Below, in pieces: positions 9,561 through 39,299 of a stretch of 64,000 nt of DNA (the first letter of the stretch is position 1; every line of letters starts with the position of its first letter). The DNA is taken from positions 2,480,001 through 2,544,000 of the forward strand of contig CP137319.1 of assembly GCA_033182465.1 (NCBI GenBank), written 5' to 3'. Made by a program: the position numbers and the translations under genes. Source of the stretch: Sanghuangporus weigelae (lineage: Eukaryota > Basidiomycota > Agaricomycetes > Hymenochaetales > Hymenochaetaceae). Under the pieces are notes generated by a model. The model was not told the origin of the DNA and did no database searches. It worked only from the letters and a program-made list of their open reading frames with translations.

Positions 9561-11006
9561 GTCACCTCGTAGCTAAGAAACTTTGTCGCAAATTTCATTT
9601 CAAATACCGAAACTCTCATTGCTCATTGAAACTCCTTGGTACTTTCTGTTAGCAGAGGAGTGTCACAGTTCTGTTGGGGGCTGTTCTGTAGGATCAAGAC
9701 GAATGGAATGGCGGAAGGATGACTATAGGCTAAAGCTGGGATGATTTCCGAAGGGTTAAGCTAAGTTCCGAAGCGGTTTCGGAGGCGATGAGTAAGTTTG
9801 AGATTTAAGGCTGCTGAAAGTATGCGGGGGTGGGGATTTGATCGGACAAGAGATGCTAAGAAGCAAGCGGGAGAAGTCGAAGCGAGGGGGATCGGCGGTG
9901 GCGATACGATGGTACGAACGATATCCTCACAGGTAACCCTTCAATGGATTCGAACCCTGGGGACTAGAAGACGATGAGACGAAGCTTGGGACGATATTCC
10001 CAAGGCTTAGAACGAAGCTAGAGTGATCTTACAAGGATCCGATATGATGCGACGGGATGCGACGAAACGCGAGGTATTTCGCAGCGTAACGATGCGAAAC
10101 GACGCGGAAACGGAGCGGGGAGACGAGAGCTGATTAGGGAGACGAGTAGTTTTCGAGTGAAGAATCTCTAACAGCAACGCGAGTTGAACTGAGCACACTA
10201 ATCTCGGAACGCGACTGTTAAGCAGAGGTTTCGGGACGTGTGAAGCAGAACTATCGTATATTTGATAGAGGCAGGGGAGTCGAAGTGAGTACAGCGAGAG
10301 TTGAAGTGATTCGACTATAGCAACGAGAGAAGACGAGCAGGACTAGAAATGGGCTTTCAGATCCGGACTCAACTCCTGTACTGAACTGAACTGTCTCCTC
10401 TACGCGAATAGATTGTCTATTTATAACATTGTCCATCCTGAGCCTTCGAAGCATCAGGGAGCATAAACGAAGAGAAGTCGGAAGGCATATCATAAAAAGG
10501 GGAGCATGGAGAACAAAAGATGAGGTGAACATATCTGGAAAGTGGCGAGCATATAGATCATAGGGCATAAAACAAAATATGAGCGCATATAGAACATAAA
10601 GGGGAAAAGTCGGAGCACAATGCATCGGTTCGAAGCTTGGGAGGCGTCGGTGGTCGAGTCCGAGTTTCTCAATTCAAACCTCGAGATTGGGACTGATAGG
10701 ACGAATCAGCTGAGCCTTCCTTTGTGGAGTCGACTGGGTGGCTCAGGTGTCCGATCTGCTACCCTTGTGTGATTTCCAACGTCGTAAGTCCTCTTCAGGC
10801 GGCAGTCCGATGCGCGAGGCTGTAATAGACCATTCCGCTTCGAATCTTGTTGATCCGCACTGGGTTAAGCTGTTACGACGCGGAACGTGGCGGAATATGT
10901 GTCACGTGCGTGATTTCGGACTTAGCGTGTCGGTGCTTCTTACATCGTGTTCCGTATCTCCGTTTTATACATTCGTTTAGTTTGCTCTTCTTCAAACTCT
11001 GTCAGT

Positions 11007-13029
11007 ATGGCCATCAGCACACGTCGTAATGCTGTGCCACCTCACCCTGACCGAATTCCGTGCGACCCGGACCTCATACCCATGCCCGATTTCTCCTTGG
11101 CTCTTTACGACGACGCTCGGCGAGACTACAAACGAACTCTGAGTAACTTGGATGATGCTGAAATTAAGTGGTTTATGGAACAGACTTGGCGGATTTGGAC
11201 AGCTCAGGCTAAGATATGGTGGAACACATACGGTTCTAATCAGGCAAGTCACTCTCTCTCGGCTCCCGCCTCTTCTGCTCCCGTCGCTGGTCCGTCCTCG
11301 GCTGTTGATCTTGGTGCCGCTGCAAATCAGGCACCAGAAAACTCTGGTGCTTCTCTGGCTCCGTCAGCTGGCTCTTGTGCAAACTCACGCCCCGCGTCGC
11401 CGATCCCCCTCATCCAGATTGCGGCCCCTGCACCTGCTGATATCGCCATCGCACCATCTGCTGCTGCTGCTGCTTCTACTGCTGCTCTCACCGCTGCTCC
11501 TGCTCCGGCCCCAGCTCCGTTACCGCGCGTCCCCGTTCCGGCTGCCGCTCCAGTATTCCCTCCTCCGGCAGCTGCTGCTGCCACCCACCTTCCCTTTGTT
11601 GCTGCCGCTCCTATCGTTGCGCCTCCCGTCATTGCTGCTGCTGCTGCTGCTCCGGTTCCCGATGCTTTTCAGTTTGGTCCTGATCTTCTTCAAGACCGTC
11701 GGTCGACTTATGTCTTGCATTCCTCCATTGAGGCCCGGCTTCGTAAGCTTCAACACGTCCCTCTTTTCCATTTCACAACTCGCGGTCTCAAGAGCCAAGT
11801 TGACTCACACCAGCAGTCTCTGACTGACCACTCCTATCGTCTGGAGGTTGTCGATGGCGCTTCTGCTCTGGTTCCAGCTACCTCGTCATTTCTCTCCAAG
11901 AAGGTTCCCTCAGACGACATGCTCGACCTACACCAGTTCAGGGAAGCTCAACTCAACTTTCTTGATGCTATTCGCAATGCTCAGTGGCCACCCGAAGTCA
12001 TTGATATGTGGGATGACCTTTTTCACAATATTCTTTCCCATCCATCCAACCTTCATCCGACTATCAATGGCCAGCACCCTCTGTTGGTCTACCTTGCTCG
12101 CATTCGCACTATGTGGCACAATGACCTCGAAAAGACCGGTGCCCACCCTTTTGTCAATCGGGTTGATGAGATTATGTTCAATCAGATCCTACAGGAACTC
12201 CAAGCGGCTCAGCATCTAAAGCAATGCACCGAACTCCAACAACTCATGGCCTCCATGTCCGTAAGTTGTCGTCTCATCTCTGCCTCTCCTGTACATGGTC
12301 TCATCATCCTTCATATGTACGATATACTCTTCTTTTCCCCTTTTATCACCTATATATATCTATCTTGTTCCGCAATCCTTTCTGATTGTGATGCCGCCTT
12401 TCTGCGATGCCACCTTTTGGTGATGATCTTCTTGTTCCACAACTCTGTCTGGTTGTGATGCCGCTTTTCTGCGATGCCGCTGTCCTATCTGACTGTGATG
12501 CTGCCTTTCTGCGATGATTCACTCCTCTGTTGCAAACATGTCTGTTTGTATTTCTCTCTGTCTGTCTATCTGTCTGTCTGTCTGTCTGTCCGTCTGTCTG
12601 TATGCCCATGCATCTTTCCATCAGGCTTCGAGCTCAGCTGCCCCACCCAGGGTCACTGGTTCTCGAAAGCGTCGTTTCGGCACAGACACTGTAAACTCCC
12701 CGCCGCTCACATCTTCTTCCTTTTGGCCTCGAAAGGCCGAGCCTTTTCGGCATGGCACAAACGCGATCCCCATCGTTTGTGCCGTCTGCCTTGGTTTTGG
12801 GGACCATGATGTCCAGTCATGCTCCAGAGTGAAGCTCTGGGATGGCTCCCAGCCCACCCGCTGTCATCGAGGACCTGGGGCTGCCCTGCTCAACCGAGCA
12901 GGCCAACCTGTCTGTATCCGCTTCCAACTTCTTGTTGGATGTTCCACTCGACACCCTTACCTACACGAATGTTCCGGGTGTGGGTCTCCAACCCATGGAG
13001 CAACAGGATGCAAACTCGCTCAGAAATAG
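11007..13029 (+). CDS. Gag-like protein of the YR retrotransposon (spliced)
   Basis: Exons 11007-12260 and 12625-13029 give 552 residues. The start MAISTRRNAVPPHPDR is shared with copy 2. Residues ~85-245 are an Ala/Pro/Ser-rich low-complexity tract. The centre (DLLQDRRSTYVLHSSIEARL, DMWDDLFHNILSHPSN) is a conserved helical region. The second exon has two Cys/His clusters, CAVCLGFGDHDVQSC and HECSGCGSPTHGATGC, resembling zinc knuckles that could bind the element RNA. Donor GTAAGT at 12261 and acceptor CAG at 12622-12624 are matched in copy 2 (GTGAGT and CAG), so splicing is a conserved property. Without splicing, the protein loses the zinc-binding exon. The last 188 nt overlap the RT frame. 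Confidence 0.8.
12261..12624 (+). repeat. Gag intron with a TCTG microsatellite and degenerate ~50-bp repeats
   Basis: The intron contains about ten TCTG units (roughly 12,556-12,602) and, upstream, three or four imperfect copies of a unit built around TTCTGCGATGCCGC and GATTGTGATGCCGC. The equivalent intron of copy 2 (about 26,319-26,745) has related GCGATG/CATCGC-type repeats. Typical introns in this window are 50-70 nt, so this 364-nt intron is exceptional. Confidence 0.7.
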
Positions 13030-14980
13030 ATTCCCTCCTTCCTCCCCATATAATTATTCTGAGTGGCATTCTGACTTGCTTCGTTTTGACCTCCTTTCTC
13101 GCTACCTCACCCTTATACCTTTTCTTTATAATGGATTTCAAGCGGGTGTCCCTGCGATTACTCATTCTTTCTGTCCCTCGAACTCCGCTTCGCTATACAA
13201 ACATCAAGATATATTTGACTCCATTGTTTCTGTGGAATTCTCGGCCGGCCGTTATTTTGGCCCTTTTTCACGCTCTCAACTGGAAGCCCTTATTGGGCCA
13301 TTTCAATCATCCCCTCTCTCCCTTGTGCCCAAACCCAATTCGGACAAATTTTGTCTGGTACAGAACCTATCCTTTCCTTACAACCAGAGGCTTATTTCGC
13401 CTTCCATTTCCGTCTCGTCTATTAACTCTCATATTGATTCAGACCTCTTCCCTTGTACCTGGGGCTCATTCCTCACGGCTTCCCTACTCTTACTTCGACT
13501 TCCTCCTAATTCTCAAGGGTCCTGTCGCGATGTTGCTGATGCTTTTCGCACCATTTCTTTGGCCCCAGACCAATGGCCGGGTGTTGTCATCCGTCTATCA
13601 GAGAATGATCGCTTCGCACTCAATGTTGCGAATTCCTTTGGTCTCTCTTCTGCAGGTGGAGTCTGGGGACTCCTGGCAGATGCCTTTTGTGATATCCTAT
13701 CAGGTTATGGAGTCGGACCCATCATCAAATGGGTCGACGATTTTCTTTTTCTTCGTGTTCTATGGTCTGAGTTACATTCATATAATCAAAAGCGTACCGT
13801 ATGGGCTGGCCGAGTCAAACAAATCGGATGCTTACAAGTCCGATCTCGTTTTCTTTTCATTGGTGATTCTCTTTCTGATGGCCGTCTCGAGGAATTTTCC
13901 GACAGTATGGAGTTTCCACTCAGATCGCTTGCTGCTCTCTCTTCTCAAACCCCTTCTCTTCCTGAATCAACGATTTATTCAAACGATTCTTTGTATGCTT
14001 ATTCGTCAGGTCATGTTGACCAGATTTCCCTTCGTCTTGGTGTCCCTTGGAAACCTGAGAAAACTACCCCCTTTGCTTCGACAGTCACGTACCTGGGTTT
14101 CCTCTGGGACTTGGACACCAAAACTGTTGCGCTTAGTGCTGCGAAAACCTCAAAATACATGTTGGCCATCCAACAGTGGCATTCCAGACGGCGACACACT
14201 CTCAAAGACGTCCAAGAACTTTATGGAAAGCTACTCCATGCTAGTCATGTCCTCCCTGCGGGCCGGGCTTACCTGTTCGGCCTGGAATCCATGCTACCAA
14301 CTTACGGTAGTCGTCCAGACTGTCTTCACCGACCTGCGAAGTCAGTCCGGGACGAACTTGACTGGTGGACAGCCCAGCTCTCCTCTCCAACGCTCTCCCG
14401 TCGAATCCCCTCCACTGACGAGTTCCCTGAACTCTATGCATACTCAGACGCAAGTTCGGGCTTTGGAATCGGCCTCTTCCAACTCCACTCTTGGGGCGCA
14501 TACCGTTTACGGCCGGGCTGGAAGAAAGATGGTCGCAAGATTGCGTGGGCTGAAGCTGTCGGAGTTGAGCTCCTCCTCCGCACTCTCCTACTCACCTTAC
14601 CCTATGGCAGCAAGGTCAAGATCTACTGTGACAATACAGTCGTCCTTGGTGGATGGCGGGCTGGGCGGAGTCGAAACAAGGCTGTCAACGACGTCCTCAA
14701 GCGTGTCCACGCGCTTGTTTCGGAGAATGACCTCTCGCTCATTCTCCGATACATTCAATCAGCCTCCAACCCTGCTGACCAGCCCTCTCGGGGCATCTAC
14801 ACTCCAGGGCCTCGCCTCCCCATCATCTCTCTCCCATCGGTGCTCACTCCCTTCCTCGAGCCAGTTCTCTTTGGTGAGATCTCTGACCAGCCGGCTCCCA
14901 GCATGCTCCCCAAGCCGAAGAAGGCCCCCATCTCGAGCCCCCTGGATGAGCTCTTTGATAATGAGGATCGATCGCTCTGA
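12842..14980 (+). CDS. Reverse transcriptase-RNase H of the YR retrotransposon
   Basis: The 712-residue frame is uninterrupted. RT motifs: SPLSLVPKPNSDKFCLVQNL, then CRDVADAFRTI with the first catalytic Asp (residue ~228) and KWVDDFLFLR with the Asp pair (~300). RNase H follows: AYSDASSGFG (Asp), WAEAVGVELL (Glu), IYCDNTVVLGGW (Asp) and SNPADQPSRG, so the metal-binding residues are present. The first Met (12842) lies inside the Gag second exon, in the +1 frame; translation could start there or arise by frameshift. No protease domain is seen. The frame ends 20 nt into the recombinase frame. Catalytic motifs look intact. Confidence 0.9.
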   Translation: MAPSPPAVIEDLGLPCSTEQANLSVSASNFLLDVPLDTLTYTNVPGVGLQPMEQQDANSLRNRFPPSSPYNYSEWHSDLLRFDLLSRYLTLIPFLYNGFQAGVPAITHSFCPSNSASLYKHQDIFDSIVSVEFSAGRYFGPFSRSQLEALIGPFQSSPLSLVPKPNSDKFCLVQNLSFPYNQRLISPSISVSSINSHIDSDLFPCTWGSFLTASLLLLRLPPNSQGSCRDVADAFRTISLAPDQWPGVVIRLSENDRFALNVANSFGLSSAGGVWGLLADAFCDILSGYGVGPIIKWVDDFLFLRVLWSELHSYNQKRTVWAGRVKQIGCLQVRSRFLFIGDSLSDGRLEEFSDSMEFPLRSLAALSSQTPSLPESTIYSNDSLYAYSSGHVDQISLRLGVPWKPEKTTPFASTVTYLGFLWDLDTKTVALSAAKTSKYMLAIQQWHSRRRHTLKDVQELYGKLLHASHVLPAGRAYLFGLESMLPTYGSRPDCLHRPAKSVRDELDWWTAQLSSPTLSRRIPSTDEFPELYAYSDASSGFGIGLFQLHSWGAYRLRPGWKKDGRKIAWAEAVGVELLLRTLLLTLPYGSKVKIYCDNTVVLGGWRAGRSRNKAVNDVLKRVHALVSENDLSLILRYIQSASNPADQPSRGIYTPGPRLPIISLPSVLTPFLEPVLFGEISDQPAPSMLPKPKKAPISSPLDELFDNEDRSL

Positions 14981-16100
14981 GACTTCGAACAGTTCTGGTG
15001 CTCTTGACCCCCAAACTCTGCGTCCTGATGTCCCGGCAAAATCAAGGCTGAAGCTTTGGAAGCCAGCTCCTTCAACGGTCTCTCTCTCTGTCATTCCCCT
15101 TGGTCTACAAAACCGTGTGGTTGACGTACTTGCGTCGTCACTCAAAGAATCAACATTGCAAACTTATGGCTCTGGGCTTGCCCAATTTCATCGGTTTTGC
15201 GATGACTTAAATATCACTGAGGAACTTCGAGCACCCTGTTCCCCTGATCTGTTAGCTGGTTTTATTGCCTCCCTGGCTGGTTCTTACTCAGCATCCTCAA
15301 TTGCGAACTACGTGTTTGGCATTCGAGCCTGGCATGTTCTCCATCATGTCCCATGGGAAATAAATGAAATTGAACTCAAGTCGCTCCTGCGCGGTGCAGG
15401 TGCTCTTACCCCTGAAACCTCCAAACATCCACTGCGTGCGCCATACACGCCTGCAATAATTGAATCCCTTCATGCTTGCCTTGACCTCTCAGATCCTCTA
15501 GACGCTGCCGTCTTTGCCTGCCTGACAACATCCTTTTATGCTTGTGCTCGCCTTGGAGAATTCACTGTTCCAAATCAGTCAGCATTTGTCTCTCGTCTTC
15601 ATGTCAAGCCATCAGACGTCTCTGAGCGAACAGACCACCAAGGACATCAAGTACGTGCCTTCTCTCTGCCTACCACCAAAACAGCACCAAACGGAGAAGA
15701 AGTCTTTTGGGCCGCCCAAGATGGGCCTAGCGACCCTTTCTCTGCATTTCAAAACCATCTGGCCATAAATTTCCCTCCCCCCGACGGTCCTCTCTTTGCT
15801 TTTCGGACTGACAGCGGTCACCAGGCACTTACCAAGTCCATGTTCCTTAAGCGCCTTGAGCGAGTGGCCCACGAGGCTGGCCTCAATCCTTTGCACGGCC
15901 ATAGTATTCATATAGGCGCCACATTGGAATATCTCCTTCGTGGGGTTCCCTTTGATGTTGTCAAGGCGATCGGACGTTGGGCATCTGATGCCTTTACTTT
16001 ATATCTGCGCAAACATGCCCAAATTCTGGCCCCTTACCTTCAGGCTATCCCTGAAGTGCATGATCAGTTCGTTCGATTAACCATGCCCCCTCCAAGATAA
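14961..16100 (+). CDS. Tyrosine recombinase of the retrotransposon, with HxxR changed to HxxH
   Basis: From the ATG at 14961 the frame gives 379 residues; it overlaps the RT stop by 20 nt. The N-terminal SAM-like part (LKESTLQTYGSGLAQFHRFC) is typical of phage-integrase folds. The catalytic domain has the first Arg in CARLGEF, then HGHSIHIGATLEYLLRG, GRWASDAFTLYLRKHAQ with the nucleophilic Tyr, and LAPYLQ. The HxxR box reads HSIH, so the second catalytic Arg is His. The codon is CAT, one G-to-A step from CGT. Relatives I know of read HxIRIGATLEY at this place. The enzyme is therefore probably impaired, although the frame is otherwise intact. In this family the recombinase inserts the circular or linear cDNA. 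Confidence 0.85.
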   Translation: MRIDRSETSNSSGALDPQTLRPDVPAKSRLKLWKPAPSTVSLSVIPLGLQNRVVDVLASSLKESTLQTYGSGLAQFHRFCDDLNITEELRAPCSPDLLAGFIASLAGSYSASSIANYVFGIRAWHVLHHVPWEINEIELKSLLRGAGALTPETSKHPLRAPYTPAIIESLHACLDLSDPLDAAVFACLTTSFYACARLGEFTVPNQSAFVSRLHVKPSDVSERTDHQGHQVRAFSLPTTKTAPNGEEVFWAAQDGPSDPFSAFQNHLAINFPPPDGPLFAFRTDSGHQALTKSMFLKRLERVAHEAGLNPLHGHSIHIGATLEYLLRGVPFDVVKAIGRWASDAFTLYLRKHAQILAPYLQAIPEVHDQFVRLTMPPPR

Positions 16101-16300
16101 TTGCCTAATTCTCTTTGGCTCGAACTGGTCTTGCACTTCTGCGGCATTGGCCTCCTTTACTTTTCCGTGAAATCTGTGAGTGTTTCCGCCCGCCTCCTAC
16201 TCATGTGGGTTCTCGCTACGTCTCGTCGCGTCGCAGGCTCCTACACTCTGGGTGACGACCCGTAGCTGATTGTTCTGCCACTTGTAGGTCCGGGCATGAC

Positions 16301-16339
16301 GATGGGAGCCGGAGCCGCTTTCAGCGGCTGGCACCCATC
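16301..16339. repeat. 3'-terminal hairpin of the retroelement
   Basis: GATGGGAGCCGGAGCCGC pairs with the following GCGGCTGGCACCCATC around a short loop. The structure is conserved in copy 2 at 25217-25255, where it is one of the best-preserved parts. It is followed by a polypyrimidine run. Confidence 0.65.
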
Positions 16340-16600
16340 TCCTCTTCTCTTCTCCTCTCTTCTTTCTCTTGATAATGCAATGTATATTATTACGACACTA
16401 GTACAGAGAACAAAACAAATGTTGTCTTTCTTGTACAGCGAGTACGGAATGAAGGACGCAGATTATGACTTGGAAAAAAAATCAGCAGGCATGTCTCATG
16501 GTATACAATTGGATCATGCACTCAGTTTTGAGAAAATTGCTACGTGGTGAGCTACAAAAGTGGATCTGTAATAGGTGTTCAAAGGACCGGTTAATGACTG

Positions 16601-18999
16601 TATCTCGCGAAAGTATTTATTCGACCAATCCCTTATCTTGGTCGTCGAAAATGCGCAACTATCGTGTCGGAAGTCTTCTTTGGTCTCGGCTACTAATTTC
16701 GATTTCGAAGGCCCGACTGTGTTTCTTTCCTTGGGTTTCCCCTTGTCTCGTTTTTTCAAATTTCTCGTACGACTCTCTTTCTCGACGTGTATAAATAGAT
16801 GATGGTTACGTATGTTCACGAGCCAATTATCCAGACCTTTCCTTTCGTATTATCTTCGTCTGTTATATCAGATTCGGGCACCGTTTTAGAGACGGGAGTC
16901 TTCGTCTTCAATTGTCTTTTCTCTTTAAAGCTGTGAAGGATAATTCAGATCACTTTGATTCCATCGAGTGGCCCCCAACGGCACAAAATGATGTTGTGAT
17001 GTTACAATTATCCACCGTCGCTGGATCAGCAGTACGGCGGACATAAGTAGTATGCAGCATGGGAGGTTTGAGAGAAAGTATGGTCACCAGCTGAGGAATC
17101 AACCCGAGAAGGACGGAACACGTACAGGGGACGAAAGTGCGATACAGACTGAGCATTAATTGACCCGGACAATGAATTGTGTGTTGACAGCATTCCCACA
17201 ATACTTGTATGCATTAAGTCGGTACTGGTGGTTGTCCGTGAGTCCATAGTCTGCACTATTGGTCGTTCTCGCAAATTCAGAAGAGTCGCTCCGTCGTTAA
17301 TGTTTACAATGGGTACGGTCATTATGTCTACTTTATATAACCATCAAGAAAAGAGGATATGGCCATTTAGGAAGAGAACGAGCTCAACTGATGTCCACTT
17401 GCGGCGAGGATGCACTGCTCAGAGTGAGGAAGAGCCACGATGTCGGCAAACGGCATGCGCAGCCGGCTTGTAGTGACAAAGCCATCTACTAGTAGACGAC
17501 ATTGGCACATTGCACATAAAAGCTTGGTCTTGACATAGCTACAGTCTCGCTATGGTTAACACTGGATCCAAGAGAAATCGCAGCGTGCTGGGGAGAGTGA
17601 GGAACACGGTCGTTCAAGTTGAAGCTGCGCAGATCGACAACCTGCTTATCTAAGTTATCTTGGTAACCAATATTTGAGAAGTCGTAATTTTTCCCGTCTC
17701 GTGCTGCCTCACAATGTCGACCCATTGTCCGATAGGACTCAGCCTGATGCCGTTCTATCCAATCATATATAAACGTTATGCCTGTCTGGTCTATTGATTT
17801 TGCTTTCCTTGGTTGTGTTCCGCCTGCAAAACATTTGGGGTGCTAGGTGACCATTTGTAGATGTGCTGTACGAGACGGCACGGTATTCTAGTACTGACTA
17901 GCGTAAACACAGATTTTCACGGGGTGGCGAAGTCATGCGTCCTTCGATTCTCAAGCACACTAATCCGCGGGGCGGCATTATTCATTTCCGCACTGCTCTT
18001 CTTCGCGACTGTCAAGTGTTCCCCTATCATTCCGCACGGTGTTCTCGTCAAGATCTTTTGTCATCATTCGTTCGTAGCAGGTATCTATCACGTTCTGGGC
18101 TGTAATATGCTCGTGGGTCAGTCTAACTCCGACGCTCTCTCAGTATTAATCTTTCTTGCAATACTTCGATTCTTGAAAATTGGATGCATATCCGAGTTTG
18201 TCACTGAAGGAACGAAAAGTTTGACGCTTCAGGTAAAGACAATAAAGCTAGGCTCTTTATAATGCGCAGAACAGGCCGACCACCTCGGACAGCGTTTTAT
18301 GTCGGGCATTAGACACGTCAGTAGGACAGTTAGCTCTTATTGGTCAGAGCAGTAAACTACGATGATAACGACATTATTGGTATGGTCGGACAATGGAAGC
18401 TTACAGTGCTTGTCGAGGACCGAGGGCAAACAAGGCCGCTCTGAGTACAACTTTCTTTCGAGAAACGGACTGCGGGAGCCAGTAATGAATCTATCTTCTG
18501 AGCGCTTCCCGCCGTTTCGTATCACTGATGCAGGTGCAATGCGATGCTGGTTACGTGAACAGAACAGACCGCTAAACGATGGATTCGGAACACGGTCGAA
18601 CCAGTACCATCCAGGGCCAAACGCAATAAAATTTTCAGGCGTCTCTCCACGTTTTAGCTACCAATCCCCGGACCATCCCTTTCGTTACTTGCAGGAAACG
18701 CTTGAGAGCAATAACAAAGATTCGGGATAACGTGAAAGGCCATAATTTATGCACGTCAAGATAAGCCTCTCTGGGGTGCATGTGTCACTATTTGAGTGGT
18801 CGAAGTGAGACCCGGCAGATTTACACTTCCATATGCGATCATTTCCTATGATCAGGGCACTCAAGAAGTCCCTGCTTTTGAAGGAAGGCGGCGACCAACA
18901 TTCCCTGACGCTCTGAACTCGACATTCAATTCTTAATGGCCACAATGATTAAGTCCAGATGCTGTTCCCTCTCGGTGCTTTCCTCCTCTCAGAACACTA
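16601..18999. other. 2.4 kb without a recognisable gene
   Basis: Several frames of 60-130 codons exist (17026-17322 minus, 17861-18262 plus, 18362-18730 plus), but none shows a domain, signal peptide with plausible body, or consistent exon pattern. I see no repeat apart from the outer transposon end. Confidence 0.35.
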
Positions 19000-19625
19000 A
19001 TGGACAACGACAATTTTGACTGGCTCACCCATATGAGTGAGTATATTCATCCCATAGTTTTATTATTTTTCACAGCTTCTTCCTCTCTACCAGCCGAGGA
19101 AGACTTTGATCGCTATATTGCTGAAAACATCCCATTAGACAACGAGGTGGCAAGTCTGCTTTTGGGGGAAACAAACACGGGGACCCGGACCTCGCAGAAG
19201 TTGGCATTGATTGAGCACTCGGCGAACAAGGCGCAAGAGTCGGGCAACAATAACGTCACCGTACAAGGCGGCAAAGCCCCTGTACCAGAGACACAAAGAA
19301 ACGAAACCCCATGCGGTCCTTGCAAATCTCGCAAGAAAAAGGTGAGATCCACCGTGAAGTCACCACTGGACAAAATTTTCCTCACCTATGTTTATCAAGT
19401 GTACAACTATTTCTCTTCAGCCACGGCTTTGCGAGTTTTGTTCAAAACGAGGCGAAAAGGAGTGTCCGTCTCGATTCGTCAAGATTGCTGGAGCAGGTAC
19501 ATCGTCAACTGTAAGCGAGCCTCAAGCATTTCCGATCTAAGAGACGATGTTGATTATGCGCCTCGGATAAGAAAATGAGCAAAGACAAAGACGGCTTTGT
19601 CTATGAATACATGGATGTCGATTGA
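19000..19625 (+). CDS. Small Zn(II)2Cys6 protein, copy 1
   Basis: Four exons, 19000-19036, 19076-19341, 19400-19510 and 19572-19625, give 155 residues with a closed frame (an alternative acceptor at 19093 would drop six residues). An acidic N-terminal region (EEDFDRYIAENIPLD) precedes a fungal binuclear zinc cluster: CGPCKSRKKK, then C across the intron, TTISLQPRL, CEFC, SKRGEKEC. Spacing C-x2-C-x6-C-x9-C-x2-C-x7-C fits the Gal4-type rule. The third intron ends just before Cys3. The last exon encodes a conserved tail, DKDGFVYEYMDVD. There is no fungal-specific transcription factor domain and the whole protein is far shorter than usual for this class. Probably a DNA-binding or decoy regulator; the role is an inference. 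Confidence 0.75.
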
Positions 19626-20848
19626 ACGTTGCATTCCACATTACGTCCCAGCGTGTCCGAAAGTCGATTACGCGATGCTCTCTACAGACAGAACAGATTC
19701 CTCTGCTCATGTCGGCACTTCGTCCATGTCTGTAAATTTCGGGTCAAACTGAGATAAACGTCACTTATACCATCCGTCCTCTGTGTCTGTACCTTCTTAG
19801 TAGTAGAAGTTGTTAGCAATCGGTTTGTGAGACGCCTAATTTTTGGTCTCGTGAGGTTACATAATAAGAATGATTAACCTATGATCGATGAAAGATCGAC
19901 GGAGGATACTAAATTCTCATTTCGGGTAACCCGATTTCCGTTGGAAAGAGTAGTGTCTACAGTAATTAACACACCGGGCAAAAACTCATTCCGCGCCCTT
20001 AGAAATTTTGATCGGAACGGGTGAGCTCTCATCCGATTGGCTCTTTTTCCATTCTGGGTAACATTTTCACGGTTCGAAAATGAGTTTTTGCCCGGTGTGT
20101 AAGTTTTATTATCACATAATCCAACAAAGTACGGTTAACTACCAGGTTCCGTATGCATCACAAACTTTTCTAGAACTTAATCGGAAGGGTTATCTGTACC
20201 GGGTTCACCGGTGATTCGGCAGTGGCTTCCTGAATAAGATCGCGGGAATGTCTGAGCGACACCCTGCAACATCGCTGTGGTACGAACACGTAGAATTCAG
20301 CAAGAAACGCCTAACAGGCATGGAAGCCATTGTTTTTTCTTCACCTCGTCTATCAACTTCTTGATGTAAGACATAGTTTCAGATGTTCTCGCTTTGATGT
20401 ACTGGTACTCGGGCCGATGTTCAGTTGTCGTTTGACGTTGTTTGCATAGTGGACGATGGTTCACATCAGCTACGTAAGATGGACACGAGCAGAACTCATG
20501 GGCATCGCCTTAGAGAGTAACATACTGGTCTCGTTATTATCCATCCGTTTGCCGCGGAGTATACTCAGACTCGAGGAGAACACCAGTGAGGGCCCGCCGG
20601 CGTGGCAAATTTCACTTTGATATGGACGTCCAGAGCAGTGCTTTTTGTCCTGTTCCTAGTATGCGTGCATGTAATTCCGCTTTGTCCGATTGATCCTAAA
20701 CGAAGTTTCTCCTCCTTTAAGCCGAAAGCACCGACAGACATCCTTACGCTGACCTCAACGTCTGGCTTTAAACGAGCTTGAATGTTGCTCGTTACTTACG
20801 ACAGTCATACCCTCTGCCTGCTTCGAGCCTCTACTAGCGGAAGCATCG
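19626..20848. other. Intergenic region between Zn2Cys6 copies 1 and 2
   Basis: Contains a short inverted-repeat element (19969-20100) and no credible gene. The last ~300 bases should hold the promoter of copy 2. Confidence 0.4.
19969..20100. mobile_element. 132-bp MITE with perfect 22-bp inverted repeats
   Basis: The sequence ACACACCGGGCAAAAACTCA (continuing TT) at 19969-19990 is repeated inverted and without mismatch at 20079-20100. The 88-bp interior has no coding potential. TA occurs near each end (19967-19968 and 20100-20101), but the exact target duplication is unclear, so I do not assign a superfamily. Confidence 0.75.
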
Positions 20849-21457
20849 ATGGAGGAAGGCTTTCTTGAGTGGCTTGCTCAGCTTTGTGGGTGATCTTTGT
20901 CCTCCGATTCTCATAAGGCTCATGATTTTCTGTGTCGCAGCGGAAGAAGAATTCTTTCGTTACCTAACGGAGGGTTTGGACGTGACTGATCTATTTCTTG
21001 AAGAAACGGGTGGTCCAACTAACCGCGATCAACTAACTGGACTGATTATGGACATGACATGCAGGCCACAAGGTCCGGGGGATGGTGTCGCGCGCGACAT
21101 CCCAGGTGGTAATGCGCCTATACGCGAGACTCAGAAAAACGAATCACCGTGCGGACCTTGCAAGTCTCGGAAGAAAAAGGTCAGCACGGTCTCGTTTCTT
21201 TCAAGTTCTCTCCTCTTAGTATTGTTTCATCAAGTGCACACTCATCTCTCTGCAACCGAGGCTTTGTGAGCTTTGTTCTAAACGCGGAAGGAAAGAATGT
21301 TCATCTCAGCTCACCTTGGTCAACAAGACAAGTTCATCCTCGAAAGTGAGCGAGCTCCAGAATGTTGTGGATAATTCTGACTATCTTTGCTTCTTTGTAA
21401 CAGAGGACAAGGAAGGATAAGGACGGCTTCATTTATGAATACATGAGCATGGGATGA
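20849..21457 (+). CDS. Small Zn(II)2Cys6 protein, copy 2
   Basis: Paralogue of the gene at 19000. The likely start is MEEGFLEWLAQL at 20849, a short first exon that splices to EEEFFRYLTEGLDV. The cluster is CGPCKSRKKK (exon ends 21179), then C-TLISLQPRL-CELC-SKRGRKEC starting at 21235, with the intron again directly before Cys3. Exon 3 ends at 21346, and exon 4 (21404-21457) encodes DKDGFIYEYMSMG, matching the tail of copy 1. The exact donor of the first intron is ambiguous (two GT within four bases). Frame and motifs are otherwise intact. It lies in the same orientation ~1.2 kb downstream of copy 1, consistent with tandem duplication. Confidence 0.7.
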
Positions 21458-22022
21458 GCGTCACTTTTTCGCCGCATCGGTTTCGGTTTATATATTTTTC
21501 ATGGTCCTTGAAGTTTCTTAGCCCCCAACAAGCTTTCTTGATCTTTAGGCGAAAGCCTGAGTCTAACATCTGGTATTCATTGAATGTTCAACTCCACGAA
21601 GAAGTCATTATGGCCGCGCAGCATAATAGAACCAATCGGTACGCACACATGGACTTTCGCTTCCGGAACCACAAATATGGCACTCAAAGGCAGATACGCG
21701 ATGATCCTGATAAACATAATCCTGGTGACGCAATGAATCTTCGCAGTTTATTCCCCCCCCCACGACGACGACGACACTCCCGGGGCGTGGAGCGATGTAT
21801 TGGATTGTTCTGTTGAATGTTCAAGGGATACCGACTGCCAGTGACACTCGCATTCGAAGCAATGAGATGAGATCCTATAGGAATTCATTTCTTACAGAGT
21901 ACAGAGAGACATAATAAACGTACCCAGATTGATTTCACCGAACGAACAGGAGCATTTTGCGCCGTTGACGTTCCCCACGAGACAAGATCATGCCAATAGA
22001 CGGCAAAGTGAAAGCGAAAAGC
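21458..22022. other. Intergenic region
   Basis: A plus-strand frame at 21454-21816 has no recognisable motif. Nothing else seen. Confidence 0.35.
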
Positions 22023-22955
22023 TTACTCAGATTGTCGCAACCTGTTAGTGAGCAAAGTGACGTACAGAAATGATTGGAATGTGTACAGATTTGTAACAAA
22101 TAGCATCCACGACGATACAGGGAAGACACTCATCCATCGGAGCATTTTACACGAATGCAACATCAATAGCGTATGTAGGAACACTTGGAGGCCGTTTCGG
22201 TCCAACACGAGTACAGTACATAAGATAAAGATAAACTTCCAGTTCATCTTTTGGTAGGTTACATCTACAACGGGAACGGCCAACTGCACTTTAGTCCACT
22301 TATCCAGAACAAGGGAAAGTACATACGTTTTCGACATATCCTTAACGAGTTTTCGAATATCGACCCTGGCATAACGCCGCGTTTGCCGGGGAACTGACCT
22401 TAGCATGCCGGCAAGAGCTTGACCAGGCGTGTACGTTTTGCGATTGTACTACGTGAATACGGAGGATACCGTGGTCCAACCGGAACTTACCGGAAGAATG
22501 CCTAATTTGGCAATCAGACGACTTTTTTCTTTCTCTACTTACTTCCTACACTAGTGACTCACAACCACTCCGCTATCAACAATGCTATCATACCTGACGT
22601 TGAGCTCCTTGAACTCTCGCATCGCATACCTTGCCACGATCAAAATTATCTTGATACTTAATCTGTGAGTCGGCAAGCCGGAATCAGCTCCTATCAGTAG
22701 ATTAGAATACACATGTCTCGTATGGCCTCTGGCTAGAGAACAGTAAGTAAGGACGTCCAGCTTCTCGATTTTCTTCTTATGGAAGCTTGTCATATACCAC
22801 ATAAAAATGTCACGTAATACGTCGCAAGTATTTCGGCAGCGGTGCTGGACCTCGACTGCATTATGCGTCTCTGCATCGTAAGCCACTCGATCGGAACCTT
22901 CGTATTTAAAATCAATGAATCTCTTGTATGCACGTCTTATGTGAAGTGTAGTCAA
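22023..22955 (-). CDS. Candidate exons of an unidentified gene
   Basis: Two minus-strand frames, 22955-22551 and 22406-22023, have plausible coding composition. The first contains RRAYKRFIDFKYEGSD and RNTCDVLRDIFMWYMTSFHK; the second LRSVPRQTRRYARVDIRKLV and YVLSLVLDKWTKVQLAVPVV. Possible splice donors (GTATGA at ~22,590, GTAACC at ~22,263) interrupt them. I could not build one closed frame and recognise no domain. It could be a decayed gene between the second and third Zn2Cys6 copies. Confidence 0.3.
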
Positions 22956-23652
22956 TCACTGCGATGAAGGACGGGACGGTAAGCTTGGTAGGACCGGGAG
23001 CATGGAAGCGCGGCAGATCTCATTACGCCTAAAGATCGGGGTTCAGTTCAACGGCTAATCAATGTCTATTACTCAGCGGGAACCACAACGGCGGGTGTCA
23101 CGGGGTACCGGTGGCTTAGAAGGATAACAGTCAACACCTGAGGAATTCTCTCTCTCACTCCACTCCACTATGGGATTCTTTCGCTCTAACAGTCGGAGCC
23201 TTTTCTGCAGGAGCCAAATTGCAGGTATCCAAAATGCACTATGCCACCGACATGATTACTTCCTCACGAATGGGCCGCGTTACGTTCTATCGTCAAGGAG
23301 ATAGGGAAAGCTTCGCTCATTCCATAATGAGTCTCGATCGTCAAATCACCGTTTCGGGAATTGAGCTCCGTTCTCTCCAAGGTCGAATCAAGAACAGATA
23401 GGATTTGTTTTTATTTGTAACGACAAACTATGCTTTTGATCATGACAATATTTCAGCGTGCGGGGACTTTGTGTTTTATGATTTTCTTCGAGTCGAATAT
23501 TTGTCAATATCAGATTCTTCTCCTTTAGCTTGCAATCACCGACGCATAAGTCAACATCATCAAGCTCAAGCCTGATTCTTGATGGCCAGGGGAATTTCCT
23601 TCAAATTACATCCGCTCCCTCTACTTTCTACTTTTGCCAAAAGACAGCAGCG
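22956..23652. other. Intergenic region
   Basis: No convincing gene. Includes the putative promoter of the third Zn2Cys6 copy. Confidence 0.35.
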
Positions 23653-24279
23653 ATGACCGGGGATTATAGCAACTGGCTTGCCCACCTCAGTGCGTACTTT
23701 CTTCCTCTTGTACGTGAATTTTATGGCATCCCTCCTTTTGACGGCCGGAGAAGAATTTGCGCGTTACATTGCGGGATATGTCCCTTTGGACGCCGGGATA
23801 TCCAGTTTACTGTTCGAAGAATCAAACTGGTCGGATTATCACTCGGAATCCTTCATCGAGTGTAAACTGGTCAAACGAGACCCAGGTTTCTGCGAACGAT
23901 GGCGATAAGAATACGCTTGTCTCAAGCGCGACGCCTGCCGTACGACGAAATGAGACCCCATGTACCTTTTGCAAAGCTCATAAGAAAAAGGTGAGCCCGT
24001 TCTATTACTAGGCTTTTTTTCATCCCCAGGAATCCAAATCCAAATAGTGCACACTATTGATGTAGAATCTGAGACTATGCAAGCTTTGTTTCAAAGGAGG
24101 AGAAAAGGTGTGTCCTTTTCAACTCTTCCAAAAAAAAAAAATCAAGCCTACTGCAACGGCTTCATCATCGAGTGTGAGTAAGACGCGCATATATGCTCTA
24201 AGATATATGCCAATCACCTGACATATTGCAGAAGCCCAAGGATGATCGTTTTGTCTATGAGTACATGGATGTGAATTGA
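23653..24279 (+). pseudogene. Small Zn(II)2Cys6 gene, copy 3, broken
   Basis: Homology to copies 1 and 2 runs end to end: MTGDYSNWLAHL, GEEFARYIAGYVPLD, RRNETPCTFCKAHKKK, RLCKLC, GGEKVCPF and the tail DDRFVYEYMDVN. Three lesions are visible. The first-intron acceptor equivalent reads ACG instead of CAG or AG near 23,741. The frame shifts between FEESNW and NETPC (about 23,850-23,900). The exon that should start TGCACA at Cys3 meets an in-frame TAG after five codons; using the next AG as acceptor avoids the stop but deletes Cys3. A nine-adenine run follows the cluster. This looks like a pseudogene unless the assembly has errors. Confidence 0.65.
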
Positions 24280-24706
24280 ACGGCACTTCGTGCTGTGTGG
24301 ACCAGTCCTACTCGTATCGGCAATGGACGGTCGACTGTATCTCATACGATGTTCCCAGTACACTCTATACTAACTGTTGGTTCAAGCCCCTGACTGGGGG
24401 AAAACAAATAACAGTGAACTTGACCCGTAAACCGCTTTTACCAGAAGACAAACATAATAAGGAAGACCAGATGCGGTTAGGAAAGATAAACAGGCCAGTA
24501 GTTTATTGCCGTCAAGATGCAATGGAATTCCACTGATGTAAACATGGACGTCTCAAGGTTTTTTTGATTTCGCATTTCTGTGCTCCGCGAAAAAATTGAG
24601 TAGCTATGCAATGAACTGTTCATAACAGAAGACACAAAACTAATTTCTAATAGTGTTCAAGGACTGTGTCATCTAAGTCGAAAACAGATTCCTTCTCCTT
24701 CGTTAC
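24280..24706. other. Intergenic region
   Basis: Only an unremarkable 86-codon frame (24276-24536); nothing recognised. Confidence 0.35.
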
Positions 24707-24949
24707 TTAGCACGTCCGTTTTGGATCTTTCAATCGCCGAACCGTGAGAGATTCGTCTTCTGCAGACGAATCTTCCTCCGTCCTTGTTGTCCCCAAATGT
24801 CTGTGCAGAAAGCTTCCGGGAGTCTCCCAGGTATCCTGGAATTTTTCAGGTACTTGCCCTTCTCTCAGAAATGCCGTCCGGAATGTTGCTAGTCCCGTAA
24901 CTCGATACTTTTCGTGAAACTTCAAGTTGTGCAGAAGCATCGTTCGCAA
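24707..24949 (-). CDS. Candidate 3' exon of an unidentified gene
   Basis: An 80-codon frame with good coding character (LLHNLKFHEKYRVTGLATFR, EGQVPEKFQDTWETPGSFLH, acidic C-terminus). A second frame upstream (around 24,965-25,070, minus) contains NLDDLEQRHSKYVGVHARGV and ends at a possible GTGAGA donor, so the two may be exons of one gene. No family recognised. It ends against the deleted retroelement copy, which may have truncated its 5' part. Confidence 0.35.
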   Translation of the reverse strand: MRTMLLHNLKFHEKYRVTGLATFRTAFLREGQVPEKFQDTWETPGSFLHRHLGTTRTEEDSSAEDESLTVRRLKDPKRTC

Positions 24950-25183
24950 AGACGCAAGGCCTTTGAAGCCTTCTCACACGATTAATGTACTCATAACAGT
25001 TAAGTCCGTGACTCCCCTGGCATGCACGCCAACGTATTTCGAGTGTCGCTGCTCCAGGTCGTCCAAGTTTTGGTAAGTGTTATTTCTGCGTCTTTCATTC
25101 CGGACTTGCTGTACAAGAAAATATGACCTTTTGTTTTGTTCTGCACATTTCGCAATTCGTTATTATCATATACATTGCATTAT

Positions 25184-26164
25184 TTAAAGAAAACAGAGAA
25201 GGGAAAGAGAAGAGGAGATGGGTGCCAGCCGCTGAAGGCGGCTCCGGCTCCCATCGTCACGCTTGAACCTACAAGTGGCAAGGCCAGCTACGGCTCGACA
25301 CCCATAACAGTTTGCGTTATTAAGCGCAAACTGATCATTTTCAGAGAGACGAACAACAATGCCAGGCCATTGATCTGGAGCCAGAGGAATGGTCCGAAAA
25401 GCATCAGCAACATCACGACAGGATCCTTGAGACCCAGAGGGTAGGTGGAGAATACGAAGGGAGGCTGTGAGAAAAGATCCCCATGTGCATGGGAAGAGAT
25501 CGGAGTCGATATGAGAATTGATGGAGGAAACAGAGGATGATGGTGAGCGCAGCCTTTGCTTGTAAGGAAAAGAAAGATTCTGTACCAAACGAGACTTATT
25601 TGAGTCGGGTTTGGGCACAAGAGAGAGTGGAGAAGATTGAAAGGGTCCAATGTGAGCTTCCAGCTCCGAGCAGGAGAAATGGCCAAAATACCGGCCAGCT
25701 GTAAATTCTGCATATACAATAGAATCAAACACTCCCTGGTGTTCATAAAGCGAAGCAGAATTGGAGGGATAGAAGGACTCAGTAATTGAGGGAACACCAG
25801 CATGGAACCCATTATAAAGGGAAGCGACAAGGGTAGGATAGCGAGAGAAGTCCGAAGCGATGCAAGTGAGAATGCCATTCGGAAGGATTATATGGAGAAG
25901 AAAAAGGAAAACTATTTCTGAGTGAGTTTGCATCCAATCGCCCCGTGAGATGGGGAACCACATCCAGAGCACTCGTGAAGGTAGGAGTGTTGTTCGGAGC
26001 AGCCGATGATGAGCTGGAAGCGAATGCAAACGGCCCGGCCTGTCTGATTGAGCAAGGCATTCCCAGGCCCGCGGTAACACCGGGAGGGCTGGGAACCATC
26101 CCAGATCTTGATATGTGAGCACGACTGAATGTCGTGGTCCCCAGAGCCAAGGTAGATGGCACAA
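25184..26164 (-). pseudogene. Truncated RT fragment of retrotransposon copy 2
   Basis: Contains SSPLSLVPKPDSNKSRLVQN and CRDVADAFRTIPLAPDQWPG but stops resembling RT after RLSENDQFALN, where the internal deletion fuses it to the 3' noncoding end. It retains the first catalytic Asp and lacks the Asp pair, so it cannot polymerise. Confidence 0.85.
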
Positions 26165-27945
26165 ATGGTGGGGAGCACACTTGCGCCTTGGTGAAAAGGC
26201 TCGGTCTTACGAAACTGGGAGGATGAGGATTGGGCAGGGAGGGAGTTTGCTGCATCAATGCCAAACCGATGCTTGCGAGCACCAGGTGCCCGAGAAGGGA
26301 CTACTGAGCTCGAGGACTGAATAAAACAAATGGCACACATATTGCCCGAGGGAGCAGCATCATGGACAGAAGATATAACAGAACAGAAGCAAGTCATCGC
26401 AAAAAGCGACATCACAGTCAGAAAGGACCATGTAATAGAAGCAGATCATCGCCTGTGAGAGAGAAGGTGGCATCGCGATCAAAAGGTCTTGCAGGACAGA
26501 TGCAGATCATTGCAGAAAAGCGGCATAGTTGCGGAACAGTAGCAGATCATCACACAGTCGGCATCATGGTCAGACAGAACTACGGAACAGAAGCAGATCA
26601 TCGCCCATGAGAGGCGGCATCGCGATCAGAAAGTATCGCAGGACAGACAGACAGATGCAAGACTGCAAACATAGAGTAGAATGGCATTTCATGTATACAA
26701 AATTGTAAGATAATGCAGAGAAGATTCAAATTGACGTGACATGACTCACAGTTGTGGAAGCCATAAGCTGGTTAAATTCATTAACTTGCTTTTGGTGTTG
26801 AGCCGCCTGCGGTTCCTGAAGTATCTGGTTGAGTATGGTTTCATCGACACAATTGATGTAAGGGTGGGAATTAGTCTTCTCGAGATCATTGTGCCACATG
26901 TGCGGATGCGAGCGAGATAGACCATCAGAGGGTGCTGACCATTAATTGGCGGGTTGAGATTTGATGGATGGGAAAGCATGCTGTGGAAGAAGTCGTCCCA
27001 CATATCAATGACTTCCAGTGGCCACTGAGCGTTACGAATAGCTTCGAGGAAGTTGAGGTGTGCCTGTCGAAACTGGTGCAGGTCAAGTAAATTGTCAGAC
27101 GGGACCTTCTTGGATAAAATGGTTGAGCTGGCGGGCACAAGCGTAGAGGCTCTGTTTACGACTTCGAAATGATAAGAGTTGTCTTGGTGAGACTCAAGCT
27201 GGTTCTTGAGACTGCGAGTGGTGAAATGAAAGAGAGGGACGTGTTGGAGCTTACAAAGGCGGTTCTCAATTGAAGGATGTAGAACATGAGTCGAACGACG
27301 GTCTTGAAGGAGATCTGGGCCGAATTGAAAAATATCGGGGTCTGGGACGGCAGGAACAACAGCAGCAGCAGGAGGTGGAATGGGAGCCAGAGCAATAGGT
27401 GCGATAGGACCGCGAGGGGCAATCAGCAGAAGCAACAGCAGAGGCGACAGTGGGTGGAGCAGGTGTAGCTGGCATCGGGGTTGGGCCTAGGGCTGGAAGA
27501 CGGGCCGAAACACGAGTAGCAGTAGCAGTGAGTGCCGGTGCAGGAGGTACGACTGGACATTTGGAACTGGGGAAGGGGTCCGCGAGGCGACAGGCGAGAG
27601 GGCTGGCGCAGCCAGTGAAGACCTGCCACTGCTCGCTTGTGCCTGATTTGCAGCCGTTCCGTGATCGACGCCGACGGCGGAGGACGGACCAGCAACAGGG
27701 TCTACGGAAGCAGAGTGGGGTAGTGCGGGCCACCATATCTTAGCCTGAGCTGTCCAAATCCGCCAAGTCTGTTCCATAAACCACTTGATTTCAGCATCAT
27801 CCAAGTCACTTAGAGTTTGTTTGTACTCTCGCCGAGCGACGTCGTAAAGAGCCAAGGAGAAATCCGGCATGGGTATGAGATCCGGGTCGCACGGAATTCG
27901 GTGAGGTTGAGGTGGCACAGCATTACGACGTGTGCTGATGGCCAT
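25912..27945 (-). pseudogene. Gag pseudogene of retrotransposon copy 2
   Basis: Starts MAISTRRNAVPPQPHRIP like copy 1, but the frame breaks in the Ala/Pro-rich tract: the body continues in two other frames, through DIFQFGPDLLQDRRSTHVLH. The splice donor after MAST (GTGAGT, ~26,745) and the CAG acceptor at ~26,319 are preserved, as is the zinc-knuckle exon (HECSGCGSPSHGAIGC), ending at 25912. In the first cluster, CAVCLG has become CAIYLG, losing one Cys. Confidence 0.8.
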
Positions 27946-28285
27946 ATTGACAGGTGACGCGTACTAGTGTAGTATGGTAGGAACGAAAGAAGCTTCGGCT
28001 TCTTCCGTCACCTCCGGAAGGAAGATTGTCAAATCACTTTGTGACTATTTCCGTGACGTCAGGCACCTCTTCGATATGAATAAGTTTGGGCACACGCGTG
28101 CCTTGTCTTTTGGCCTTTTCTCCATCTCATCTCTCTTGTGTCTTCTGTACGCTTTCTCCGTTTGTAACAGGCACACGTTTGGATTGGTCACGCTTATTAT
28201 TACTCGCTTGCCGGGTCCAATCTCCCACATCGAGCATATTATTACTGTTTTACTTGGTACGTGTGAAGTTCTCAATTGATCATGA

Positions 28286-29769
28286 TCAGTTGGATGTGGA
28301 GTTGGTGTTCGGCGTCGTCGCAAATCCGACTCGCTGGTTTGTCGCGTCGTACACTGTGAAGAAGCGCTCCAGGAACGCATAGCCGTTGATAAAATCCAGG
28401 CCTGCCCCGATGTTGATTCCGAGCTACAATTCGTACAATTGCAGAAACATTAGCTTGGTCCCCCTAGACATGGTAGAATGAGGTCAGCCACTCACGTCGC
28501 CGACTATAAGATAAGTTGCATTCTTGTCCCCGCCAATGAACTCGTTGAGGGGTCTTGGGAAGGTTTGCGCATTTTTGGTGAGCTCAAAAGTGGTTCCGCC
28601 GATAGAAAAGTACAGGCTTTCGAGTTTCTCGTAGGCGTCGCTTTCGATCTTAAGCAGACCAGTATCACTATCAATCTTCGCTCCTGTCACGTTTGTATAT
28701 GCGTTAAATGCATCGGTGGCCTGCTCGCCCGCGAAGGGTCAGTTCTGCACTGCACAATGTTTGAGCATCTGCAATACTGACCAGGAGGAATAATGTAGAG
28801 CCGGTATCTACTATGCCCGAAGCTGAATCAATTATATTCTTTGCAGACGCGCCATACGTTACGCTCATATCTATTCCCCAGTATTTCGAAGCCGGCGATG
28901 CCTTGGTGATCGGAACGTAAGTGACATCGCCGATATACTTGCTTTCATCAACTCCGCCAAACGTAATTACACCGTTTCCGTTGGGTTCAATTGTCGTTGG
29001 AGCGAAGGAAACAGCGAAAACTTCGTTTTGAATTTTTCTCTGTGCATATAAGTTGTCCATCACCGTTGGAACAGTTGAAGTATTCTGCACGGTATTCGCC
29101 GTGGTAGCTATGGGACCTAAACCCAGGATGCCATCATATCCAGCGAATCCGGACGTGGTATTCGCTACACCTATGCTCTGTTCCTTGATGACAAGATCTG
29201 GTGAAAGTGTGATAGTGTCATTATCTAGGGCCAAGTCAAGACCAAATTAGCCAGAGCCTTCACAGTAACGACGAAACGTACATTCAACGCCTAACATCCT
29301 ACCTGAACCGTAGCTGACGGATACGTTTTTCCCCAGATTTACGCTAGAACTTGTCGGCTGGTACTTCTTATCGGCACCTATAATTTATCCCCAATCAGCT
29401 ACCTAGCAACTCGCAACGTAGAAATGACTTTCCTATCCATGTGTTCGAGCTTCCGGTGTCAACGACGAGCGAGTATGTTGTAGCAGGCTCGCCAACACCC
29501 ACATCCGCAACATAGGTTACACCAGTATTTGTTGCAGAAATTGATCCATCTCGCCGACCGAGTCCCGCAAACCACGTGGTTGCGCGTGCACGATCAAGAT
29601 CAGCAATCTTCGAGCCTCCGAGTGACAGGTTAAGATGGACTGCAAAATCAAACGACAGAATTGAAGATGGTGGATCGCGGATCTGTACAATTGGTTTTCC
29701 GAAGACGAGAGTGCAGCTTCTAGCGGAAGCTGCGAGCAAAAGAATGGCCTTTTCAAGAGTGCATAGCAT
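28286..29769 (-). CDS. Secreted A1-family aspartic peptidase
   Basis: Five exons are inferred, starting MLCTLEKAILLLAASARSCT, a good signal peptide. Both catalytic motifs are present: VVDTGSSNTWIG in exon 1 and GIVDTGSTLFLL in exon 3. Other family blocks: VSYGSGRMLGVE, GYDGILGLGP, NEVFAVSF, GVITFGGVD, YLIVGDLG and a final RFFTVYDATNQRVGFA. It resembles polyporopepsin-type basidiomycete peptidases. Introns 2, 3 and 4 (GTACGT, GTCAGT, GTGAGT donors) are canonical. The first intron, between WIG and ADKKY, needs a donor at 29431-29432 that reads GA (GAAAGT) instead of GT; every GT alternative breaks the frame or makes a 25-nt intron. The enzyme would digest extracellular protein. A relic paralogue lies at 7757-8083. 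Confidence 0.85.
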
Positions 29770-30419
29770 AGCGAGGGAAACTTAAAGAAGGAGTGTGTTG
29801 TAAAGAATGGAAGAGAATGAGAGTGAGGATGAGAGAATGGAGAGGACGTGAGTAGACGTCCTCTCTGACTTGAGTATTGAGTGTCAAGTCTTCAAACAAG
29901 GGAGTGCGAGGATATAAGTACCATCTGGCGCTCCAAGCGGTGTTCGGTTGCTGCCAACTTGCTGAGCCGAAAAAAGGGACATTCGCTACAGAAGACCCGA
30001 TTTTTCTTAGCCGTCAATGCCGCTAAGGCGGAAATATCGGCTGGAAAAACACAATTACACCGAAGGGCAAAGCCATGGACTACCGTGATTCTAAAGAGCA
30101 ACTGCTGCAAAGCATCGACGTTTACACGACCACACAGACTACGTAGAGTAGACTCACTTTGTATTTGACGCTTCATCTTCTCGCGCTTTACCATATCGGC
30201 TTCTTATATACATTCGTCGGACCAGCAAACATAATTTCACCTCGCTTGTCCTATATTGCTTGTTTCCTACGATCTACATCCTAATAAATTATATACCGTG
30301 GTGAATCCTCGTGAGTCGAGAAGGCGATGGCGATTGCGTTCGATCTGCATTACGGCCATTTTATCCCTGGCTGCCGGCGTAACTGAAGCATCTGCGCGAC
30401 CTATTACTGGCACAGGAGG
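29770..30419. other. Intergenic region
   Basis: Between the peptidase start and the 3' end of the DUF6533 gene. A 100-codon minus frame (29892-30194) beginning MVKREKMKRQ has no recognisable motif and I do not call it. Confidence 0.35.
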
Positions 30420-38696: not shown

Positions 38697-39299
38697 GACC
38701 GACCTGTTGCCTGGGCGAGCCCTGTCACCCAACAGACGCTGGACACCATGGCTTTAAAGAGCGGGAATTTTGGAAGTGTAGCACGCGGATACAGAATGGA
38801 AATAGCATTATTAGTATAGTAAATCCCAGGCGTATGCTTCGCAACCTATAGTAGCATAGGGATTCGCATAAGCAGAACGAATAAAAGAAGGCGGCACTCC
38901 TGATGGGCCTCTATTCGTGCGAACAGCGGCCGTATTTCGGATAGAACCCCCATGTGTTGCGTCGCACGGGCTTGATAAGAAGGCTGCGACGCGTCGACCG
39001 AACTGCCCGCTCATCAGCGATCCGCGACCGCGTCGTATGGTGGTCGGCTTTAGAGGACTTTCATTTGTACTTTCTGAAAAATAAGAATAACGCAACCGTT
39101 CTGATTGAGAAGCAACACTCGGTCCAAGGTAGAAAGCGGATGGTAGCTATCCATCAATAGGTTAGGAATCCAGTACTTGATTGGAATCCATCCTTATTGA
39201 TGACGTGCCCTCTGGCGACAATTTGACGCGTAAGACGCTGAGCTGGCGACAGCCGCCCCGCGTTGACATTCGACGTCTGTCTGGCACGTCACGTCAGGC
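38697..39299. other. Intergenic region
   Basis: Promoter side of the sedolisin gene; a TTTAAAG box lies ~55 bp upstream of the start on the minus strand. No gene seen up to the duplicated block at 39,300. Confidence 0.4.

Follow-up and report, generated by a model that had tools for sequence, protein, structure and literature searches.

A locus of Sanghuangporus weigelae is likely to hold two minimal DNA-binding regulators of the Zn2Cys6 (Gal4-type) class, an old tandem pair, and a decayed third copy, with the second intron of the genes being spliced constitutively. It lies in the window, by which we mean the whole 64,000-nucleotide stretch of contig CP137319.1 that was analysed (Table 1). 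An earlier note on this DNA had counted three genes; copies 1 and 2 are intact, whereas copy 3 is frameshifted and without a readable full cluster, and the most likely count is two genes and one probable pseudogene.

Table 1. Features of the three-copy locus and Pfam-annotated neighbours, in positions of the window
Feature	Position	Strand	Description
Copy 1, intact 4-exon model, 149 aa	19000-19625	+	exons 19000-19036, 19094-19341, 19400-19510, 19572-19625; open spliced frame, GT-AG introns, purifying selection vs copy 2
Copy 1 intron 2, 58 nt	19342-19399	+	CAAG end abuts Cys3 codon TGT
Copy 1 segment CTTISLQ	19400-19420	+	from Cys3 acceptor to in-frame downstream CAG acceptor; skipping deletes Cys3 and gives a 142-aa frame
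Copy 2, intact 4-exon model, 146 aa	20849-21457	+	exons 20849-20885, 20941-21179, 21235-21345, 21404-21457; open spliced frame
Copy 2 intron 2, 55 nt	21180-21234	+	donor GTCAGC; CAAG end abuts Cys3 codon TGC
Copy 3, probable pseudogene	23653-24279	+	frameshifted exon 2; ancestral Cys3 acceptor followed by in-frame TAG; GG in place of AG at the corresponding intron 1 acceptor; tail exon remains open
Copy 3 stretch matching exon 3 start	24048-24065	+	reads CTLLM-stop; its terminal TAG is also a potential acceptor
Aspartyl protease	28707-29246	-	Pfam
Pro-kumamolisin activation domain	37389-38753	-	Pfam
MBOAT	43740-44744	-	Pfam
Acyl-CoA dehydrogenase	52261-53127	-	Pfam
Indole-3-glycerol phosphate synthase	59455-60297	-	Pfam
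Aldo/keto reductase	60681-61121	-	Pfam

The models of copies 1 and 2, made from the sequence alone, share introns at matching places, all of them GT-AG and 55-61 nt long, and in both genes intron 2 follows AAAAAG and stands exactly before the Cys3 codon TGY. The two proteins are 50 percent identical, most strongly from NE(T/S)PCGPCKSRKKKC to Cys6 and in the conserved tail KDKDGF(V/I)YEYM. They share the cysteine spacing C-x2-C-x6-C-x9-C-x2-C-x7-C with a basic stretch, KSRKKK, between Cys2 and Cys3, end 32 residues past Cys6, and begin with an N-terminus that is acidic (among its first 40 residues each protein has 11 D/E vs 1 K/R) and also aromatic. The acidic N-terminus and DGFVYEYMDVD-like tail of the earlier note are thereby borne out, as is the short size, the proposed length of about 155 residues being slightly too high. 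That note had further placed a full Gal4-type cluster and an intron exactly before Cys3 in all copies; both hold for copies 1 and 2, but copy 3 has no full cluster and its corresponding acceptor leads straight to a stop.

Copies 1 and 2 probably bind DNA. KSRKKK would contact a CGG-like half site, and with no coiled coil visible by eye after Cys6 in either protein, binding may be monomeric as in AlcR. The acidic N-terminus could serve as an activation segment and the conserved tail as a short interaction motif, while intron 2 would be an ordinary, constitutively spliced intron in a class of clusters that are often split, and not a regulatory switch.

The absence of a transcription factor middle domain, likewise claimed earlier, is confirmed in that a search for PF04082 (Fungal_trans) at E 0.1 finds nothing in the window; on the contig, the closest match is about 65 kb beyond the window edge. 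Elsewhere in the genome, the 55 exon-level matches to PF00172 found at E 10 fall into 48 loci, 26 of which have a match to PF04082 (E 0.1) no more than 5 kb downstream and 22 of which do not. This share is rough, since the PF04082 search also went exon by exon and chance may account for some of the weak cluster matches. A very short protein that has a cluster of DNA-binding type and no middle domain might also work as a competitor or repressor, occupying CGG-type sites and so blocking longer Zn2Cys6 regulators, or acting through partners bound by its tail. We regard this as unlikely, since the acidic, aromatic N-terminus looks more like an activation segment and there is no known partner.

The cysteine spacing typical of Zn2Cys6 clusters was written as C-x2-C-x6-C-x5-12-C-x2-C-x6-8-C, a pattern matched by copies 1 and 2 and by none of 20000 shuffles of copy 1 residues 21-149; the 142-aa form of copy 1 spliced at the downstream acceptor does not match it and gives no Pfam match at all. 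The curated cut-off of 21 for Pfam PF00172 (Zn_clus), which is a detection limit and not a definition of a Zn2Cys6 cluster, is not reached by either protein (10.1 bits for copy 1, 14.9 for copy 2), and all three loci were missed by exon-by-exon PF00172 searches of the genome. For copy 2 Zn_clus is nonetheless the best Pfam match, while copy 1 scores slightly higher with a FYVE-type zinc model (11.6, also under its own cut-off). NCBIfam gave no match for the short proteins, and the four matches among solved structures (best E 0.26) include no convincing relative. The Pfam scores would suit a cysteine-rich protein that binds zinc but not DNA, such as a zinc module for protein interaction. Such a reading is improbable in view of the exact six-cysteine pattern, the basic stretch between Cys2 and Cys3 and the intra-cluster intron, a feature shared with many Zn2Cys6 genes in this genome.

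Comparison of copies 1 and 2 points to long-standing selection on the proteins. Overall, synonymous differences are near saturation (pS 0.73) and nonsynonymous ones are fewer (pN 0.31). Selection is strongest on the cluster, with pS 0.76 and pN 0.07 (Fisher p, from rounded counts throughout, about 3e-11; the N-terminus plus linker gives 6e-5 and the part following the cluster 0.001). With synonymous sites near saturation and the cluster almost unchanged, the two copies must have evolved as proteins. The same holds locally for the seven CTTISLQ codons, which look like coding sequence in both copies because their changes are mostly silent (five synonymous, two nonsynonymous).

The family of short zinc-cluster proteins is known from a single locus in one genome. 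When a 77-aa piece of copy 1 was searched against its own genome, seven matches resulted: six lie in this locus, and the weak seventh, on C9 (E 0.287), was rejected as a fourth copy since its translation reads AN1-like by eye. The tail pattern with up to two mismatches occurs at 17 sites, against 116 for the reversed control pattern: the three copies without mismatch, one site with one mismatch and 13 with two, the last being counted only while the translations of the other four were read. The single-mismatch site, on C10 (DAFIYEYI), belongs by eye to a SET-domain-like protein and was discarded as a relative. No further copy in the genome thus emerged from the protein search or from the tail pattern, the 13 two-mismatch sites aside. 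A first genome-wide DNA pattern for CxxC clusters was dropped, giving 239 sites against 210 for its reversed control. Contigs of IMG/VR and GTDB, databases that are uninformative on fungi, held no relatives, and titles and abstract openings of open-access literature, among the matches listed, mention no short Zn2Cys6 family with this tail.

Copy 3 retains traces of the same architecture. In its exon 2 the frame that starts like those of copies 1 and 2 runs into a stop, with the NETPC stretch in another frame. At the acceptor of intron 1 the matching bases are GG and not AG, although an AG six bases further would serve, and at the acceptor matching Cys3 AAATAG precedes TGC. Two acceptors of exon 3 were tested, and the exon stays open only with the TAG that ends at 24065. 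Against copy 1, codons 1-7 of this exon look unconstrained (pN 0.61, pS 0.60) and codons 8-22 constrained (pN 0.19, pS 0.52), a weak contrast (Fisher p 0.019 vs copy 1, 0.076 vs copy 2) that is as expected either from a moved acceptor or from plain decay with the stop in that place. An additional intron in exon 2 could in principle rescue copy 3 as a gene. The frame stays open with any of nine trial introns there, the least bad being 67 nt long with donor GTGTAA and acceptor GTCTCAAG, but this reading was judged unlikely because exon 2 is uninterrupted in copies 1 and 2.

The earlier note had taken the split cluster as a sign that splicing could switch DNA binding, an implication that is not supported once other zinc-cluster genes of the genome are considered. 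The survey covered 54 of the 55 PF00172 matches, one lying beyond the stretches of DNA taken. Cys1 to Cys3 share a single exon in 16 of the 54, and in 29 an intron is predicted between Cys1 and Cys3, with a GC donor in three; seven are unresolved and two start after Cys3. These introns are predictions from sequence and not RNA-based. In eight of the 29 split clusters (8/54 overall) the intron falls exactly before Cys3. Two of the eight are in the multi-cluster loci L019 and L020, being paralogue-like with weak splice scores, and another (L056) has only two basic residues; a stricter count is five, one of which (L054) uses a GC donor. Shuffling the 260 bases upstream for the same 29, with the two bases before Cys3 kept, gave 2900 trials; the intron solver reached any solution in 9 of them and one placed exactly before Cys3 in 2. 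Intra-cluster introns are, as far as predicted gene structures tell, common in other zinc-cluster genes of this genome, and may be undercounted because the PF00172 search favours clusters keeping long exons. The gene nirA is cited as being of GAL4 type, its highly conserved regions holding four introns (an entry in the reference list of PMC3998117). L020 (C2:1817854-1818744) and L019 (C13:544663-545524), which are similar in sequence, each carry four consecutive PF00172 matches on the same strand, with a fifth cluster visible by eye in L020, and it is possible that these loci encode a poly-cluster protein.

A switch would act through use of a downstream acceptor or retention of intron 2, either of which breaks the cluster and would turn DNA binding off. 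Copy 1 offers the means, with AAG as acceptor before Cys3 and an in-frame, pyrimidine-preceded CAG 21 nt downstream. Copy 2 has CAA at that place, a silent difference that removes the acceptor, so the earlier claim that a shifted acceptor breaks the cluster applies to copy 1 only. The claim that a retained intron does so is correct for both models: when intron 2 alone stays in, the resulting frames of 151 and 121 aa lose Cys3-Cys6 together with the tail, a loss that speaks against a switch. The open exon 3 and the codon contrast of copy 3 would fit an acceptor that has moved, but that copy is frameshifted and the contrast weak. Intron 2 of copies 1 and 2 aligns above all 200 shuffles (5.5 vs a best of 4.5), while introns 1 and 3 (3.5 and 6.5) do not beat their best shuffles (5.5 and 8.0). 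This similarity is slightly against an ordinary intron and makes some constraint inside intron 2 possible, yet it may only reflect the old duplication. Intron retention is described as commonly found in A. nidulans transcription factors, the Zn2Cys6 gene AN1569 serving as an example (in the part of PMC8396895 consulted). Since intra-cluster introns are common in the genome's other zinc-cluster genes, the split cluster is weak evidence for a switch, and we give a switch little credence, a Cys3-less isoform of copy 1 being a minor possibility. That copy 1 makes six-cysteine binding and five-cysteine non-binding forms through acceptors 21 nt apart, with copy 3 as a descendant fixed in the five-cysteine form, is more doubtful still.

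Between copies 1 and 2 (19964-20105) lies a MITE-like element with 27-nt inverted ends. Including this site, at least 40 places in the genome match it at 95-100 percent over 131-161 bases (40 of 71 candidates scored). Inverted stretches at 16276-16462 and 25085-25280, 80-92 percent complementary, flank the three-copy region and adjoin long open frames at 10926-12455 (+), 12810-16097 (+) and 25187-26206 (-), none of which has a Pfam match at E 0.01; stretches and frames are possibly two opposed copies of one retroelement. No tandem repeats were found in 16000-30000. The Pfam neighbours in Table 1 come from a scan of 30 of 106 long open frames.

Taken together, an intron that splits the zinc cluster does not on its own indicate regulation and appears here as a common feature of the class. 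Split clusters can also hide genes from exon-by-exon searches, as they did for these three loci with PF00172. The preferred reading, a pair of minimal regulators with an ordinary intron 2, would make copies 1 and 2 a small case from nature of a Zn2Cys6-type protein reduced to about 150 residues, and asks what such a regulator minimally needs.

With Gal4-type Zn2Cys6 regulators (PF00172) the pair shares the six-cysteine spacing, the basic stretch between Cys2 and Cys3 and an intra-cluster intron as in many genes of this genome, but differs in its length of only 146-149 aa, the lack of Fungal_trans, the conserved short tail and the Pfam score below cut-off. Zn2Cys6 clusters usually stand near the N-terminus, as in Gal4-type regulators, whereas that of copies 1 and 2 is in the middle of the protein. 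AlcR of Aspergillus nidulans, also a Zn2Cys6 protein, is far longer than copies 1 and 2 and is likened to them by description, not by sequence. It has been reported to bind DNA as a monomer (in the portion of PMC5559640 consulted), to which the lack of a visible coiled coil in copies 1 and 2 corresponds. RhaR of A. nidulans resembles the pair in that an intron interrupts its Zn2Cys6-coding region, which led to its earlier misannotation, but there the intron lies between Cys3 and Cys4 and the protein has 830 aa with a predicted coiled coil (as given in an excerpt of PMC4245848).
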